Source: a virus
Strand: one strand, 5' to 3'
Length of the DNA stretch: 34,256 nucleotides
Virus record (IMG/VR): IMGVR_UViG_3300037502_000480
Span: 1 to 34,256 of that record
Numbering within the stretch: the stretch's first letter is position 1; the number at the start of each line of letters is the position of its first letter. Positions 5,010-29,827 of the stretch are shown piece by piece. Position numbers and translations under genes: made by a program. The notes beneath the pieces are model-generated. The model was not told the origin of the DNA. It saw only the letters and a list, made by a program, of their open reading frames with translations, and did no database searches.

Positions 5010-7001
5010 TCACTTATTTTTACGGATTACAATTTTGCTAACCCATTGATGTCTACAACTTGGAGAGTTTACTCCATCTCCCATATTCCACCATCCACCG
5101 CCTCTGTCGAATACTGAATAACCTAATCTGCGAGAAATAGACTCGATATCCGCGCGAGTATACAACCTATCTAACTGCATCAGCTTGGCACAGAAAGGTC
5201 GTGAAGGATGAGCAGCAGTATTCCTTTCGTCAGTCGGTACGATTGATTTCCACTCATAAGAATAGCGAACTAAAAACGTAGTCTTTACCGGCTTATCGAT
5301 AATCTCAGCGAGAGGTTTAGTAAGTTTAGGAATACCTTTATCTACCTTAATAACATCCAACTCTTTGAGCTTATTAATTCGCTCTGTAATTACCGCTACA
5401 TCCTCCTTAACCGCCTTTGCAATATCCTCGTAGTTGATTCCTTTGTTCTTAGCAATCACATCCAAGATTTTCTTATCTAAGGTATCATCGATTACCTCAT
5501 CTCGGAACTTCATCTCCTGCTCTTCCAAATCACCGCTAAACACTTGGCGAGTAGCCAGAGCCTTGTAGTTTTGAGTAGATTCTCCGTATTCGCTGAACAC
5601 TTGGAGAACTGCATCCATATCGTTACTAAACTCATCAGCACCTAACCAAGTAGCCAACTCCTCCTCTCCTAATCCGTAAGCACTCTTCAGCATCTGTGAA
5701 GCCTGTTCACGAGTTATCTTCCCTTTGTTATATTCTCGAATAATCCGTTGGAAGTTCTGCCACTCTCTACCCTTCATTCCCTTCAGATGCTCGTTAACCA
5801 TAGCCTGAGTAGCCTCAGGAGCGATTACAGAGCCTTCTGCTGGCTTATTTTCGTACTGAGTCATATCTACCCCAATCTTCTCCAAAATCCATTCTTTGGG
5901 TGCAAATTGGCTGATAATCGATTCGCTGAACTCGTAGCTTATAGGCTCTACAGGCTTGATATAAAGTTCAGAGGTTACTCCCCTCTGTTTAGCTAACTGA
6001 TTAAAGATACTCTCTACAAATTGTTGCTTATCGTTTACGTATGTATTCTTGAATACTTCGTAAGAATCCCGAATCTGAGAGCGAGAACCCAATGCGCCAG
6101 GAGTTGAGATACCGAATAAATCAGGAGAAGTAATCTGATGACCTGCGAAAATGTTCTGCTGAATCATCTCATCGACTCGACCGAAATCCTCTTTAGTCAA
6201 ATCAGAAGCACCTAAATCCTCTACCACAGGTTTACGAGCAGCATCTTGAACGAATGACAAAATAAACTTCTTGCCATCTGAACCGCTAAATCTTTCAGTA
6301 AACCTACGTTCAATGTTCCGCTTCTCATCAGGTGAAGGCTCACCATTAGGCAGGGTAATAAGTTTACTCGCAGAAAACCCTGTTTGTGCGTTACCCAAAA
6401 CGTGCTTACTTACTTCGATGTCGCTCTCGATATAGTTAATCGCACCAATATAGCCGGGCAGAGAATAAGTATCCAAACCAGGTCGATACTCCTTAATGTA
6501 GAGAATCTGCTTACCGACTCTGTTCTGAGTATTGTAAGCAGGGATAATCTTAGGCTCTTCTTTTCTATCTGTCCAATCGTTTTTATACCAAAACTGCGTA
6601 TTGTCTTTGTTAGAGCGAATCTTAGTATAATCCAAATGACATACCTCAGTAAGCAAACCGCCAACCTTTGACCAAATAACTTCCAAATAAGCACCACCGA
6701 ATACCTCGATGTCGATACTTACCTTGCGAGTCAAATCAGCCAAACTCTCGTACTGATTCGGACTCTTGATGAATAACTCAGCATTAGGATCAACCTCTTT
6801 AGAAGCCCATCCATTACCTGTAATGTAGTTAACCTTACCTCGTACAATAGCGTTATGCTTCGCACTCTTATTGTACATAGAAAGCAAGTAGGTAGGATAG
6901 TCGTTCTTATCACCGAACTCTATATACCCTACACCTCTTCGCTCACGATACTCAGGCTGCTTCGCTTCTGCGAATTTCAATATAACTATGTTATCCATCA
7001 T
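5010..7001 (-). CDS. Portal protein with C-terminal winged-helix and MuF-like domains
   Basis: A 663-residue portal. Residues about 1-360 carry portal features, including DIEVFGGAYLEVIW, SLPGYIGAINYIESDIEVSKHVLGN split over two helices, and a long helical end around SRSQIRDSYEVFKN. After a linker rich in helices, residues about 503-560 read as a small winged-helix domain (ILDVIAKNKGINYEDIAKAV followed by ITERINKLKELDV). Residues about 570-655 resemble the C-terminal MuF-type head-morphogenesis domain, with SRPFCAKLM at about 600-608 and SPSCRHQW at about 646-653. The protein forms the dodecameric DNA gate at the capsid vertex. The gene overlaps its upstream neighbour by four bases. The portal call is firm; the two extra domains are read by eye. 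Confidence 0.85.
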   Translation of the reverse strand: MMDNIVILKFAEAKQPEYRERRGVGYIEFGDKNDYPTYLLSMYNKSAKHNAIVRGKVNYITGNGWASKEVDPNAELFIKSPNQYESLADLTRKVSIDIEVFGGAYLEVIWSKVGGLLTEVCHLDYTKIRSNKDNTQFWYKNDWTDRKEEPKIIPAYNTQNRVGKQILYIKEYRPGLDTYSLPGYIGAINYIESDIEVSKHVLGNAQTGFSASKLITLPNGEPSPDEKRNIERRFTERFSGSDGKKFILSFVQDAARKPVVEDLGASDLTKEDFGRVDEMIQQNIFAGHQITSPDLFGISTPGALGSRSQIRDSYEVFKNTYVNDKQQFVESIFNQLAKQRGVTSELYIKPVEPISYEFSESIISQFAPKEWILEKIGVDMTQYENKPAEGSVIAPEATQAMVNEHLKGMKGREWQNFQRIIREYNKGKITREQASQMLKSAYGLGEEELATWLGADEFSNDMDAVLQVFSEYGESTQNYKALATRQVFSGDLEEQEMKFRDEVIDDTLDKKILDVIAKNKGINYEDIAKAVKEDVAVITERINKLKELDVIKVDKGIPKLTKPLAEIIDKPVKTTFLVRYSYEWKSIVPTDERNTAAHPSRPFCAKLMQLDRLYTRADIESISRRLGYSVFDRGGGWWNMGDGVNSPSCRHQWVSKIVIRKNK

Positions 7002-23164: not shown

Positions 23165-23415
23165 TTTTTAACGTTGTATAGATTAATCATAAAGTTATTA
23201 AAGTAGGGAGCTATTGAACCTGAAGAAAACATAACTAACATACCTTTTGCATAAAATATTGGAATCAAATATAAGATTATTGCTATCCACGCAGTCAAGC
23301 ACAATGGGCAATTAAAAGGTCGAAAATTTAATTTCCATTTTTCTGGAAATCTATTCTGTGTTATAAAATAGAATGTAAAAAAATTAGAGGCTAAAATAAT
23401 TAGTATGATATTCAT
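23161..23415 (-). CDS. Small membrane protein with CPLC motif
   Basis: An 84-residue protein with an N-terminal membrane segment (NIILIILASNFFTFYFI), a loop holding FNCPLCLTAWIAI, and further hydrophobic segments to about residue 58. The CPxC pair followed by a membrane helix resembles a small phage/bacterial membrane family (DUF1360-like) that I recall only loosely. It could act at the host envelope, for example in superinfection exclusion, but that is speculation. ATGA overlaps tie it to the AT-hook gene downstream and nearly to the GIY-YIG gene upstream. Confidence 0.6.
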   Translation of the reverse strand: MNIILIILASNFFTFYFITQNRFPEKWKLNFRPFNCPLCLTAWIAIILYLIPIFYAKGMLVMFSSGSIAPYFNNFMINLYNVKK

Positions 23416-24065
23416 TTTTTATTTTTTAATTTCCAATAACGTTTTCTTGCTTCAGATATTTTTCTTTTATGTTCTTCACTTTTTGGTCTTCCCTTCTGAA
23501 ACATTGAAACTTTTAATTTTGTTTCTTCTGAAAGTTTTTTCCCTTTTTGAGATTCTGAAATATTTTTTATTGCTTCTTCGTTTCTTTTTTTCCCTTTATT
23601 TTTTATACTTATTTTCATTTTTGATTCTTCTGTATGATTATAACCTAATCCATACTTATTCCCAATCATTCTATTTTTTAAATCATTTAATTCTTTTTCA
23701 GAACGAATTCTACCAATACCACGTTTATTGCCAATTAATTTATTTGATAAATTTTCTCTCCATTCTTTTGACATAATTGCACCAGTAGTTCCTTCTCCAC
23801 CATCCGTTAAATTTGATAGAGTACCTGTGCCTATATTTTTTCTTCCATACAATGAAATAAATTCTTTCTCTTTTTCGCAAGCTTGTTCCCAAGTTAATTC
23901 ATCAATTAAAATATCAACTTCATAATCTGTTTTATTAATTACATCATACCACATTTTATTTCTTCTTGTTTTTTCAAATGCTCTTTTATATTTTTTATCG
24001 CTACCTATTCCAATATAAAATGGTTCATTTTTATCTAACCTAATATGTCTGTAAACGTATGGCAT
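23412..24065 (-). CDS. GIY-YIG homing endonuclease with NUMOD3 repeats
   Basis: A 217-residue protein. PYVYRHIRLD...PFYIGIG (about 2-21) is the GIY-YIG signature in variant form, followed by a catalytic-type Arg and a Glu further on (EKEKEFISLYG). The C-terminal half has several Ser/Thr-Glu-Glu helices with Lys/Gly-rich turns (HTEESKMKISIKNKGK, SEETKLKVSMFQKGR, SEEHKRKISEARKR), which are NUMOD3 DNA-binding repeats. The combination is typical of free-standing homing endonucleases. The ORF is markedly AT- and Lys-rich compared with its neighbours and interrupts the operon right after the sigma-like gene, consistent with recent acquisition. Confidence 0.9.
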   Translation of the reverse strand: MPYVYRHIRLDKNEPFYIGIGSDKKYKRAFEKTRRNKMWYDVINKTDYEVDILIDELTWEQACEKEKEFISLYGRKNIGTGTLSNLTDGGEGTTGAIMSKEWRENLSNKLIGNKRGIGRIRSEKELNDLKNRMIGNKYGLGYNHTEESKMKISIKNKGKKRNEEAIKNISESQKGKKLSEETKLKVSMFQKGRPKSEEHKRKISEARKRYWKLKNKK

Positions 24066-24553
24066 TAATTTTCTGAATTTCTGATTTTGTATTTCAAAAG
24101 TGTTTTAACTTTTTTTACTGTCTTAAGTAATGACCTATAAGGTATTTTTGTATCTCTTGAAACCTGAAGTAGGTTTCCAGATTCAGCATATAGCTTAAAG
24201 ATTTGTTCTTCGTACCAATGAAGTATCTCCATCGATGCGTATAGCTTAGTCGTTAGGCTCTCATCGTATGGCTCTGTTGATCCTATATCCTCTATCGGCT
24301 CGTATACCCTGCGGAATGTTCGTGCGAAATTGCTTCTGTCACTCTTAGCCATATTCAGAATCGTTCGGACTATGAAGTACTTCAGATAACCATCGTTGTA
24401 CATCTGAAAGAGTCGCTCTTCGTTCATTTCGCATAAAACGAGAAAGACCTCTTGCTTGAGGTCTTCTTGTAATTCATAGGGCTGCATCTTACCGATGGCT
24501 TCGTTTATGTCCTTCGATATATACAGGTCGTGTATGATTTGCTCACGATTCAC
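24065..24553 (-). CDS. Sigma-70-like factor, candidate late-gene activator
   Basis: A 162-residue protein. Residues about 27-85 (ELQEDLKQEVFLVLCEM, then GYLKYFIVRTILNMAKSDRS) resemble sigma region 2, and residues about 122-150 (AESGNLLQVSRDTKIPYRSL) form a helix-turn-helix like region 4. It lacks other sigma regions, as small phage and ECF-type factors do. It is the first gene of the leftward arm, which makes it a natural switch to late transcription. It begins with GTG (24551-24553); no in-frame ATG lies closer than the tandem mini-ORFs upstream, which are in the same frame and end in TAG. The sigma assignment comes from pattern only. Confidence 0.7.
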   Translation of the reverse strand: MNREQIIHDLYISKDINEAIGKMQPYELQEDLKQEVFLVLCEMNEERLFQMYNDGYLKYFIVRTILNMAKSDRSNFARTFRRVYEPIEDIGSTEPYDESLTTKLYASMEILHWYEEQIFKLYAESGNLLQVSRDTKIPYRSLLKTVKKVKTLLKYKIRNSEN

Positions 24554-24577
24554 GATATGAATATAGTCGTTGCTAAT

Positions 24578-24637
24578 CTATTCTTCCATCTATTCTTCCA
24601 TCTATTCTTCCATATATTCTTCCATTAATTATACCAT
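24578..24637 (-). repeat. 12-bp tandem repeat encoding ATG-GAA-GAA-TAG units
   Basis: Four near-identical 12-bp units (24578-24589, 24590-24601, 24602-24613, 24614-24625) and a degenerate fifth (24626-24637). On the minus strand each reads ATG GAA GAA TAG; the fourth ends TAT and the fifth reads ATG GTA TAA TTA. All lie in the same frame as the sigma-like gene that starts 24 bases further on. Confidence 0.9.
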
Positions 24638-24649
24638 ATATTATTCTTA

Positions 24650-24668
24650 TAGGGTATTAGATACCCTA
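24650..24668. promoter_or_regulatory. Perfect palindrome, candidate operator
   Basis: TAGGGTATTAGATACCCTA: 8-bp perfect inverted arms around a 3-bp spacer. The size and position between two divergent transcription units fit a dimeric repressor or activator site. No T run follows it in either direction, so it is not a terminator. Confidence 0.6.
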
Positions 24669-24745
24669 CACAGTGGTAGATAACTGCTTGATTTTCAATA
24701 CTTAGAAAAAAAGTTCAGATTTTTGAAAAAAAAGTGCCTCAGAAA

Positions 24746-24776
24746 TTTGGTATGTTGATAAGGGGTTGTATTTTTG
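24746..24776 (+). promoter_or_regulatory. Bacteroidota-type promoter for the early arm
   Basis: TTTG at 24746-24749, a 19-bp spacer, then TATTTTTG at 24769-24776. This matches the -33 TTTG / -7 TAnnTTTG consensus known for Bacteroidota primary sigma factors, with the expected spacing. The first ATG lies 41 bases downstream. It is the strongest sequence evidence for the host phylum. Confidence 0.8.
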
Positions 24777-24816: not shown

Positions 24817-25002
24817 ATGGAAAACAACATCAAACTTGAAATCGAAAAAACATTGAAAACATCTGTTGAATTAATTAAAGCAACAGATTGTGTTAATTTA
24901 ATGTTTGAAGCATTCATTAAAGGTGTTAGAGTTGCAAGTGTATATAAATCATTTGACCAAAATTTTAATCCAATAATGATTATTAGATATCCTAATAATT
25001 AA
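24817..25002 (+). CDS. Hypothetical early protein, 61 aa
   Basis: The first gene of the rightward arm. It has a Lys/Glu/Ile-rich helix (ENNIKLEIEKTLKTSVELIK) and a short beta-type C-terminus. It is very AT-rich compared with most of the window. The leader AAAACTAAACAAA directly precedes the ATG, as at other early genes. First-position early genes of phages often encode host-takeover or anti-defence proteins. Nothing in this sequence identifies one. Confidence 0.6.
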   Translation: MENNIKLEIEKTLKTSVELIKATDCVNLMFEAFIKGVRVASVYKSFDQNFNPIMIIRYPNN

Positions 25003-27875: not shown

Positions 27876-28831
27876 GACACGCATCACTCTTCTCAGGTAT
27901 AGGAGGCTTCGACCTGGCAGCCGATTGGATGGGATGGGAAAACGTTTTTCATTGTGATATAAATCCTTTCGGTAAAAAAGTACTTGAGTATTATTATCCA
28001 AATTCAATAAGCTATGGAGACATCACCAAAACAGACTTCACTATTCACAGAGGAGACATCGATGTACTCAGCGGTGGCTTCCCTTGTCAACCATACTCAC
28101 TTGCAGGAAAGCGAAAAGGGAAAGATGATGAGAGACATCTCTTCCCAGAAATGCTCCGAGCAATTAGAGAAATTTCACCCCGATGGATCATTGGCGAGAA
28201 CGTTTACGGACTTGTTAATTGGGATGGAGGATTGGTATTCCACGAGGTGCAGTCTGACTTGGAAGCTGAAGGGTACGAAGTTTTCCCGTATGTACTGCCA
28301 GCTTGTGCCATCAACGCACCGCACCGCAGAGACAGAGTCTTCTTTATTGCCTACTCCGACAACCCATCAACAGAATACTCAATTCAAGCAAGGAGGAACG
28401 TGCCTACAAGCAAAGATGATGCAAGGACTTCTACCTACTCCAACGACATTCGATGCAACGAACGCAACGGAGAATATGCAGAGCAGTCAGCTAACAGAAG
28501 GCTCGATGCACTCAATGACTTTAGTCAGGTGTCTGCACAGGAATCTTCTACCGACTCCGATGGCATCGGATTGCGGAGCGAAAGTCACAGGATTAGAAAG
28601 TCAAGATTCATTAGTAAAAATGACAAGACAAATTACTGGGAAACCTTCCCAACTGTCCCCCCAATTTGTGATGGAGATGATGGGCTTTCCGACAGATTGG
28701 ACTCTATTGCCTTTTCTAAATGGAGAAAGCAATCCATAATGGCAGGAGGAAACGCAGTAGTACCTCAATTAATTTATGTACTATTCAAAACTATTTCTAA
28801 ATTTGAAGAATTAAAAACTAAACAATGCTAA
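27872..28831 (+). CDS. dcm: C5-cytosine DNA methyltransferase
   Basis: A 319-residue enzyme with all key motifs: SLFSGIGGFDLA (motif I, SAM), GGFPCQPYS (68-76, catalytic Cys 72), GENVYG (motif VI), APHRRDRVFF (motif VIII, about 149-158) and GNAVVPQ (293-299, motif X). The variable recognition region (about 162-250) is Ser/Asp/Asn-rich, with TDSDGIGLRS before PTVPPICDGDDGLSDRLDSI. It would modify phage DNA against restriction. Residues about 48-289 share their DNA with an ORF in the +1 frame. It overlaps NinG by four bases and the DnaA-like gene by seven. Confidence 0.93.
   Translation: MRHASLFSGIGGFDLAADWMGWENVFHCDINPFGKKVLEYYYPNSISYGDITKTDFTIHRGDIDVLSGGFPCQPYSLAGKRKGKDDERHLFPEMLRAIREISPRWIIGENVYGLVNWDGGLVFHEVQSDLEAEGYEVFPYVLPACAINAPHRRDRVFFIAYSDNPSTEYSIQARRNVPTSKDDARTSTYSNDIRCNERNGEYAEQSANRRLDALNDFSQVSAQESSTDSDGIGLRSESHRIRKSRFISKNDKTNYWETFPTVPPICDGDDGLSDRLDSIAFSKWRKQSIMAGGNAVVPQLIYVLFKTISKFEELKTKQC
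28014..28739 (+). CDS. Overlapping +1-frame ORF inside the C5 methyltransferase gene
   Basis: The 241 codons lie entirely within the methyltransferase gene. The product opens METSPKQTSLFTEETSMYSA and contains WYSTRCSLTWKLKGTKFSRM, QLVPSTHRT and three LLPTP repeats (LLPTPTTHQ, LLPTPTTFD, LLPTPMASD). It ends QFVMEMMGFPTDWTLLPF. From memory, proteins with this opening, the LLPTP repeats and the MMGFPxxWTxLPF end recur in phages and prophages of Bacteroidales, next to or inside such methyltransferases. That, plus 241 stop-free codons with sensible composition, argues for real dual coding. An unexpressed shadow cannot be excluded. Confidence 0.65.
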   Translation: METSPKQTSLFTEETSMYSAVASLVNHTHLQESEKGKMMRDISSQKCSEQLEKFHPDGSLARTFTDLLIGMEDWYSTRCSLTWKLKGTKFSRMYCQLVPSTHRTAETESSLLPTPTTHQQNTQFKQGGTCLQAKMMQGLLPTPTTFDATNATENMQSSQLTEGSMHSMTLVRCLHRNLLPTPMASDCGAKVTGLESQDSLVKMTRQITGKPSQLSPQFVMEMMGFPTDWTLLPFLNGESNP

Positions 28832-29208
28832 CAACACACGACAAATTAGTACAGATAGCAGATAGATACTGCTCACTCTACGGAATCACTCGACAGGACT
28901 TATTCCGCACGAACAAAATCAAGAACGCAAAGAAACGTAAAGTATACAACGGAGTGAATATATCTACTCTACGTATGGCTCTCGGATATTACTTATCTAA
29001 TAACTTCCCTGCGACTCTTACCGAAATAGCTTTAGTAATTGGTTACAATGACCACTCTACAATAAGCTACAATAACCAACGCATCTACTTCTACATAAAG
29101 AATAATGATCCATTCTTTATGCAGCATTACAAAATTTTAGAAACAATAGGAGCAGAATATGAGCCAGTTAAATTCTACCGATTCCGCCAAAACTATATCT
29201 ATGCCTAA
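28825..29208 (+). CDS. DnaA domain-IV-like DNA-binding protein
   Basis: A 127-residue protein. The C-terminal two thirds (LRMALGYYLSNNFPATLTEI, then ALVIGYNDHSTISYNNQRI) match the helix-turn-helix of DnaA domain IV, where GYNDHSTI takes the place of the DnaA-box-binding DHTTV signature (76-79). There is no ATPase domain. Such mini-proteins may mark the phage origin or compete with host DnaA. It overlaps the methyltransferase end by seven bases and the next gene by 50 bases, in a replication block. Confidence 0.75.
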   Translation: MLTTHDKLVQIADRYCSLYGITRQDLFRTNKIKNAKKRKVYNGVNISTLRMALGYYLSNNFPATLTEIALVIGYNDHSTISYNNQRIYFYIKNNDPFFMQHYKILETIGAEYEPVKFYRFRQNYIYA

Positions 29209-29827
29209 GAGATTTACCGATACCGAACTATGGGACAAAGAGTGGTTTATGCAACTATCTCCTAAGCATAAATGCTTTGTCAAGTACGTTAGAGATAAGT
29301 GCGATCTCGCAGGTATATGGTCACCGAATTACATTCTCGCTTCTGTTTACATCGGAGATAAAGTAACTCAAGAGGAAATATTAGCAATCGATGGAGGTAA
29401 GCAGTTCGAGTTACTTTCAGATGGCAAAATCTATTGCACAGGCTTTATAGACTTTCAATACGGAACGAGTCTTAATCCGAATAGTCCTATTCATAATAAG
29501 ATTATCGAGATACTCAAGAAGTACGAACTCAAGTTTGACCTGAAGCAAGTAGTCCAGAAGAGCAACTTCGCTATACCTAAGATAGAAGATGTCTTCGAGG
29601 AGATGCTGAAAAGAACTGATGAGTACAATGCCAAGATACAATCGGAGAGATTCTTTACCTACTACGATTCTAATGGTTGGATGGTAGGGAAGAATAAGAT
29701 GAAGAATTGGCGAAGTGCAGTAGCCGGATGGATCAACAGAAGCAGACCTGAGAAGAAACAAATCGACACCAACGAGATAAAGAAATCATTAAAACAAATA
29801 GCCAACAGAAAACTAAGCGAACTATGA
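29159..29827 (+). CDS. Replisome organizer / helicase-loader-like protein
   Basis: A 222-residue protein. RFTDTELWDKEWFMQLSPKH then KCFVKYVRDKCDLAGIWSPN looks like the winged-helix DNA-binding half of phage replication initiators. The C-terminal FFTYYDSNGWMVGKNKMKNW then RSAVAGWI resembles the DnaD/DnaT-like tail that contacts helicase (YYxxxGWxxGKNxMKxW). The middle is variable. It would open the phage origin and load host DnaB-type helicase; no phage polymerase or helicase gene is present, so host replication enzymes must be used. The start at 29159 lies inside the previous gene; an internal ATG (MPKRFTDTEL) at about 29201 is an alternative. Confidence 0.75.
   Translation: MSQLNSTDSAKTISMPKRFTDTELWDKEWFMQLSPKHKCFVKYVRDKCDLAGIWSPNYILASVYIGDKVTQEEILAIDGGKQFELLSDGKIYCTGFIDFQYGTSLNPNSPIHNKIIEILKKYELKFDLKQVVQKSNFAIPKIEDVFEEMLKRTDEYNAKIQSERFFTYYDSNGWMVGKNKMKNWRSAVAGWINRSRPEKKQIDTNEIKKSLKQIANRKLSEL

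Follow-up and report, generated by a model that had tools for sequence, protein, structure and literature searches.

The window analysed here is the complete 34,256-base virus record IMGVR_UViG_3300037502_000480. Its divergent early (plus strand) and late (minus strand) genes are separated by a region of 263 bases, in which a ladder of start-stop units lies ahead of the first late gene, encoding a sigma-like protein. From comparisons among related loci, we read this region as a probable replication origin. The late side shows the following features.

24065–24553, minus strand: gene of the sigma-like protein, first gene of the late strand (alignment, AlphaFold2 model and Foldseek)

24558–24565, minus strand: TATATTCA, an off-pattern form of TAHHTT[AC]G located 4 nt before the GTG start codon; may serve the sigma gene as -7 promoter element

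24573–24651, minus strand: C-free, purine-rich (73%) tract with the ladder inside; proposed unwinding tract

24578–24613, minus strand: three tandem 12-bp units ATG GAA GAA TAG (unit found at 2 of 35 measured loci)

24650–24668, minus strand: 19-bp dyad TAGGGTAT-cta-ATACCCTA, two octamers 11 bp apart, adjoining the tract; proposed initiator-binding sites

24681–24705, minus strand: conserved partial dyad with the best-match consensus TAACTTATTGAAAATCAATCAGTTA

The ladder consists of three directly adjacent units (24613–24602, 24601–24590 and 24589–24578, read along the minus strand), preceded by ATG GAA GAA TAT (24625–24614) and ATG GTA TAA (24637–24629). Because the first GAA-GAA unit ends with TAT, it reads through into the second. 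The repeat is real, as both the sequence and Tandem Repeats Finder confirm (4.2 copies of the 12-bp unit, 97% match, score 93, compared to scores of at most 39 for other arrays of the window). Each TAG directly abuts the next ATG and the GTG start of the sigma-like gene (24553) follows in the same frame, 24 bases past the last TAG, both as described in an earlier note on this DNA. That note proposed that ribosomes stopping and re-initiating along the ladder, or reading through TAG, tune the output of the sigma gene. The perfect frame and the TAGATG junctions speak for this idea, as does the rarity of TAG, the stop of only 2 of the 44 main open reading frames (ORFs) in the window, while the chance of such a frame agreement is one in three. 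The ladder stretch also coincides with a C-free run of 79 nt (24573–24651), the longest of the whole late strand.

Relatives of the sigma-like protein were encoded at 55 loci in a first scan. More scans brought the loci that have upstream sequence and an identity of at least 60% to 74, and these grouped into 40 clusters, 37 of them usable; L015, L047 and L073 were cut at contig ends and left out of the representative set. Tract and frame were measured at 35 of the 37 loci, with L085 anchored inside the array; the anchor pattern was missing from L014 and L081, whose tract counterparts were read by eye. The 12-mer was found only in the window's own cluster and in L002, and the other loci hold triplets of the AAG, AAT or TAT type where the window has its ladder (35 representative loci). 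Even in L002, whose sigma-like protein is 93–94% identical to that of the window, the ladder is broken. Relative to the sigma start, the tract occurs in each of the possible frames (14, 11 and 9 of 34 loci). Start-stop units and frame ahead of the sigma gene are hence not conserved (35 and 34 loci compared), and the homolog comparison suggested in the earlier note went against its translational model, with the tract persisting where ATG and TAG are absent and the frame differs. Moreover, the -7-like motif lies downstream of the repeats, so that the sigma mRNA may start after the ladder. We consider an attenuator of this kind hardly credible. A recoding of TAG to glutamine, which would give the sigma-like protein a longer N-terminus, was rejected as well; related loci do not conserve this extension, and in other respects the genetic code appears standard.

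What is conserved in the ladder region is the C-free stretch, not the start-stop units. Over 60 nt, the tract contains on average 2.3% C and 79% purine (35 measured loci), and in 23 of the 35 loci A occurs at the middle position of the triplets more often than in shuffled sequences (p < 0.05).

Directly ahead of the C-poor tract lie octamers of the form ATAGGTAT, ATACCTAT or TAGGGTAT, and variants of these, at a spacing of one helical turn. In a test permitting steps of 11 and 12 bp only, chains of at least three octamers were detected at 33 of the 37 loci, compared to 0.08 expected from dinucleotide shuffles. These 33 loci hold three to five octamers each, and 75 of their 98 steps measure 11 bp and 23 measure 12 bp. 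A search restricted to exactly 11 bp returned at least two octamers at 35 of 37 loci (0.18 expected). The 50 nt past the arrays contain a mean of 1.24 C and 78% purine over the intergenic loci. Across the whole window, the octamer ATAGGGTAT was not enriched (11 observed, 7.8 expected). In the partial dyad at 24681–24705, 23 of 25 positions are common to 21 to 37 of the 37 loci, counts that are biased towards agreement because the dyad was placed by best match; it may hold a weak promoter. One candidate, L066, was rejected as it matched the dyad but had no tract.

An array of sites followed by a strand-asymmetric tract is the layout of the lambda origin and, in part, of iteron plasmids. For this reason, we interpret the region as probably an iteron-type replication origin situated in the early/late divergent region, outside of the initiator gene, and the ladder as an expansion of its unwinding tract that is specific to the lineage. 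The alternative raised in the earlier note, iterons or an origin with a coincidental frame, comes close to this interpretation, except that the 12-bp units form the tract beside the sites and are not the sites themselves.

In the annotated lambda ori, an A-rich tract comes after the iterons, on the same strand, and passages of PMC5043065 describe 19-bp inverted repeats and an A+T-rich region with almost all purines on one strand. Lambda and the window thus share a row of short inverted-repeat sites and, after it on the same strand, an A/G-rich tract that is strand-asymmetric. However, the lambda origin lies within gene O and its iterons are spaced by some two turns, whereas that of the window is intergenic, more than 4 kb away from the candidate initiator gene, has one-turn steps and lacks C more fully. 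The iteron plasmid origins RK2, F and P1 resemble the window in having helically phased sites beside a tract, one strand of which is bound by the initiator, as outlined in parts of PMC5043065 and PMC4081077; a helical phase of plasmid iterons is a general statement in the former. They differ from the window, which shows no DnaA-box enrichment: no exact copy of the DnaA box TTATNCACA occurs in the window, and one-mismatch matches number 29 versus 36.9 expected. A DnaA-box origin was rejected on these grounds. The middle-A triplets of many loci (TnnT on the other strand) recall the DnaA-trio or DnaD recognition element, as characterized in sections of PMC8287927 and PMC10201434. The phage further resembles the bacterial basal unwinding system in encoding DnaA-domain-IV-like and DnaD-like proteins, but departs from it by the missing exact DnaA box and by a tract polarity that is reversed relative to the octamers.

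These two proteins are encoded among the early genes:

28825–29208, plus strand: DNA-binding protein resembling DnaA domain IV and lacking an AAA+ domain, second candidate octamer binder (Pfam Bac_DnaA_C, E 5.9e-5)

29159–29827, plus strand: probable replication initiator, DnaD-like, candidate octamer binder (phrog_8489, DnaD-like helicase loader, 5.7e-5; phrog_15768, 7.8e-18)

Both genes are kept at every one of the 29 early-set loci, the DnaA-domain-IV-like protein at identities of 30–100%; its Bac_DnaA_C match is below the curated Pfam cut-off. HdaB is a DnaA domain IV-only protein. The C-terminal phrog_15768 module of the DnaD-like product is common to O-like and DUF1376-like proteins of sister lineages, the DUF1376 match of the latter falling below the Pfam cut-off.

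We applied a single repeat test to all initiator genes, asking for at least three phased 8-mers with the expectation taken from codon shuffles. The input came from 77 of 80 DUF1376-like loci and from 51 + 25 of 80 window-type loci; with identical genes counted once, this gave 67 DUF1376-like genes, 39 genes of the window family and 21 window-type genes outside of the family. None of the 39 family genes passed (0.1 expected), their array being intergenic instead. Among the DUF1376-like genes, 60 of 67 passed (0.5 expected), and the next 50 nt after the array contain 2.6% C compared to 15.3% gene-wide. Seven of the 21 window-type genes outside of the family were positive (0.0 expected), one of them, L388, being a slice with an in-frame stop. 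Some genes of this group show 11-bp repeats followed by GATAAA-type tracts. Their array sits in a linker that the alignment identifies as an insertion in L370, L374, L376 and L379 and that is absent from the initiator genes of the window family. In the linker of 33 distinct DUF1376-like arrays, for example among L232–L287, CATATG is repeated four to five times, and all 108 steps measure 11 or 12 bp; of further DUF1376-like genes, 21 have no CATATG and one has a single copy. The CATATG arrays and C-poor tracts inside the DUF1376-like genes are probably origins as well. In the O-like genes of L100, L104 and L105, ATACCY sites at 22–23 bp precede a C-free tract, and the PHROGs matches of the L100 product include replication initiation O-like proteins. 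Of 80 O-like loci, 47 were used in the analysis. Several of these counts take in related loci, although loci were clustered or de-duplicated.

Codon usage was compared in hand-chosen genes from these sets (19 DUF1376-like, six window-type outside of the family and five O-like). For N, D, I, Y, H, F and S, the DUF1376-like genes use a C-ending codon at 4 of 184 positions inside the tract versus 370 of 895 outside of it, and the O-like genes at 0 of 61 versus 143 of 370. Because C-ending codons are rare in these tracts, the missing C is not driven by the peptide; its avoidance at synonymous positions indicates that the signature is selected in the DNA. The layout and its conservation, its absence from the initiator genes of the family and its presence in those of sister lineages are shown by these comparisons. 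From them we infer the origin function, the identity of the binding protein and a relocation of the element, as opposed to its emergence anew.

In the mechanism we propose, the phage initiator, for which the product of 29159–29827 is the best candidate, perhaps together with that of 28825–29208, would bind the octamers, which at steps of 11 bp would face one side of the helix. The bound initiator would then strain and open the adjacent tract, where C is kept off one of the strands, one opened strand would be captured and the helicase loaded. The ladder would be a lineage-specific, triplet-based expansion of this tract, and its frame a coincidence.

Further evidence is provided by array and tract copies away from the sigma gene, which we count in favor of an origin. 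They lie antisense in the gap between terS and terL of L002, L025, L036 and L023/L047, hence in four lineages. Behind the copy in L036 there is no ORF of at least 50 amino acids, except for a 50-amino-acid GTG frame that overlaps the array. A position beside the packaging genes would also suit a terminase recognition (pac/cos) site, but 99 of the 119 loci having both genes lack such a gap, only 5 of the 15 distinct gap sequences read contain a copy, and the arrays inside initiator genes would be left without explanation, which makes this option improbable. Another possibility is that the purine-rich stretch acts as an unstructured 5′ leader which, with a 5′ hairpin, makes the sigma mRNA more stable or better translated. 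In a transcript, the dyad could fold into a hairpin, and mRNA structure and upstream adenines are reported to tune initiation in F. johnsoniae in parts of PMC6847099. The fold energy of the region, however, equals that of shuffled sequences (z -0.03), and the 11-bp octamer spacing and the copies in coding sequence and in antisense orientation suit DNA rather than RNA, so that we regard such a leader as quite unlikely. An RNA structure at the ladder was likewise rejected: in addition to this z value, Rfam returned nothing above the gathering score in the window, and its two weak rows (E up to 1) were taken as chance.

The main rival to an origin is a plain operator and late-promoter region. Here, the phased octamers, flanked by divergent promoters, would be occupied by a phage regulator, and the purine tract would belong to a late promoter as its upstream portion, with TAHHTT[AC]G as the -7 element and a leaderless or short-leader mRNA as the product. 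The position between divergent early and late genes fits this view. So does the motif TAHHTTHG, which 26 of 36 loci carry no more than 34 nt from the sigma start, compared to 1.9 expected, and 12 carry exactly 4 nt before it; L016 was excluded from this count as an extra ORF is inserted between its tract and sigma gene. For F. johnsoniae, passages of PMC6847099 place the -7 element at -12 to -5 and report AT-rich motifs at -18 and -28 as stronger than the -33 motif. With this geometry borrowed, the motif points to a sigma transcript that begins at its start codon or close by. The motif shares the TA--TT-G core and the placement before the start with the Bacteroidota promoter (TTTG / TAHHTTTG), but differs at position -6, where the 26 matching loci have A or C and none has T. 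The canonical TAHHTTTG occurs in none of the 36 loci, and no constant -33 element was seen by eye ahead of the sigma gene in 37 loci. An operator or promoter leaves unexplained why the layout is present in sister initiator genes yet absent from those of the family, and why copies exist between terS and terL. We therefore judge a purely regulatory role to be rather unlikely, although a promoter or operator may coexist with the origin in the divergent region. More tentatively, with the origin relocated from the linker of the initiator gene to the promoter region between early and late genes, the initiator might, when bound to the octamers, both fire replication and control the late sigma gene; the switch from early to late genes would then directly report origin firing, tuned by the hypervariable triplet expansion of the tract. 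We regard this coupling as conceivable rather than likely.

Several observations weigh against the origin. The case is comparative throughout, with predicted sites and a predicted function, and because the tract abuts the promoter-like motif and the gene, a promoter role is inseparable from it. The GC skew has no sharp switch at the divergent region. The window itself has two octamers only, and its own triplets show no significant phase (p 0.27). The array sequences differ among lineages, so that the likeness is one of layout and does not demonstrate descent from one element. The strict repeat test was failed by 14 of the 21 window-type genes outside of the family and by 7 of the 67 DUF1376-like genes; in the former group, C after the arrays is only slightly lower than in the gene (8.3% versus 11.5%), and the synonymous test was negative in the six genes used (8 of 39 codons in the tract versus 59 of 408 elsewhere). 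The product of 29159–29827 had no Foldseek match at E ≤ 0.001, and its N-terminal part resembles winged helices with Z scores under 6 only. A fold assignment by VIA-align was rejected, the rows at Z 4.9–5.9, which include winged-helix domains and plasmid Rep initiators, being too weak for use.

If the interpretation as an origin is correct, short sites spaced by one turn, with a C-poor tract behind them on the same strand, would constitute an origin signature usable across large uncultured phage groups. It would also mean that the origin became separated from the initiator gene between sister lineages. The unwinding tract would thereby be freed from coding constraint, so that its DNA requirements could be read directly. 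In addition, it might link replication to the late switch in phages probably infecting Bacteroidota. In the open-licence literature, we found no report of phased arrays in DUF1376-like phage genes or of a relocated origin of this type.

The label of the sigma-like protein, taken from the earlier note, was moderately borne out. Besides the alignment, it rests on an AlphaFold2 model (pLDDT 81.8) for which the top Foldseek rows are mostly extracytoplasmic function (ECF) sigma factors, none of them at E ≤ 0.001; region 4 of SigmaE was matched with a probability of 0.99 and a root-mean-square deviation of 1.6, again in a row not reaching E ≤ 0.001. There was no Pfam or PHROG match to this protein. 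Among named phages, nothing matched the sigma-like protein or the window DNA, and terL matched below 60% identity only. The sole host-side match was a Chitinophagaceae metagenome-assembled genome carrying sigma-like proteins of 43–45% identity, which makes a Bacteroidota host likely. In the sigma genes of L017–L026, L028 and L030, the conserved start position has no ATG, GTG or TTG, and CTG is the likely start codon.

On the far side of the divergent region, two further features were noted:

24769–24776, plus strand: TATTTTTG, the canonical Bacteroidota -7 form; probable early promoter

24817–25002, plus strand: first ORF of the early strand (kept in 0 of 29 early-set loci)

A gene resembling homing endonucleases (phrog_314, NUMOD3) follows the sigma gene at 23412–24065 of the window, and the inserted ORF of L016 (5535–6005) was judged by eye to be probably a homing endonuclease. 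The terS-terL gap of L025 contains a tRNA-Trp gene (5254–5326). In L016, L025, L031, L032, L033, L083, L090 and L099, this gap holds a conserved element of about 430 nt (e.g., L032:10453–10884), the L032 copy of which had no Rfam match. RNAalifold predicted 64 pairs from the eight sequences, 28 with at least one compensatory change, and the element is possibly an undescribed structured RNA or an intron beside the packaging genes.
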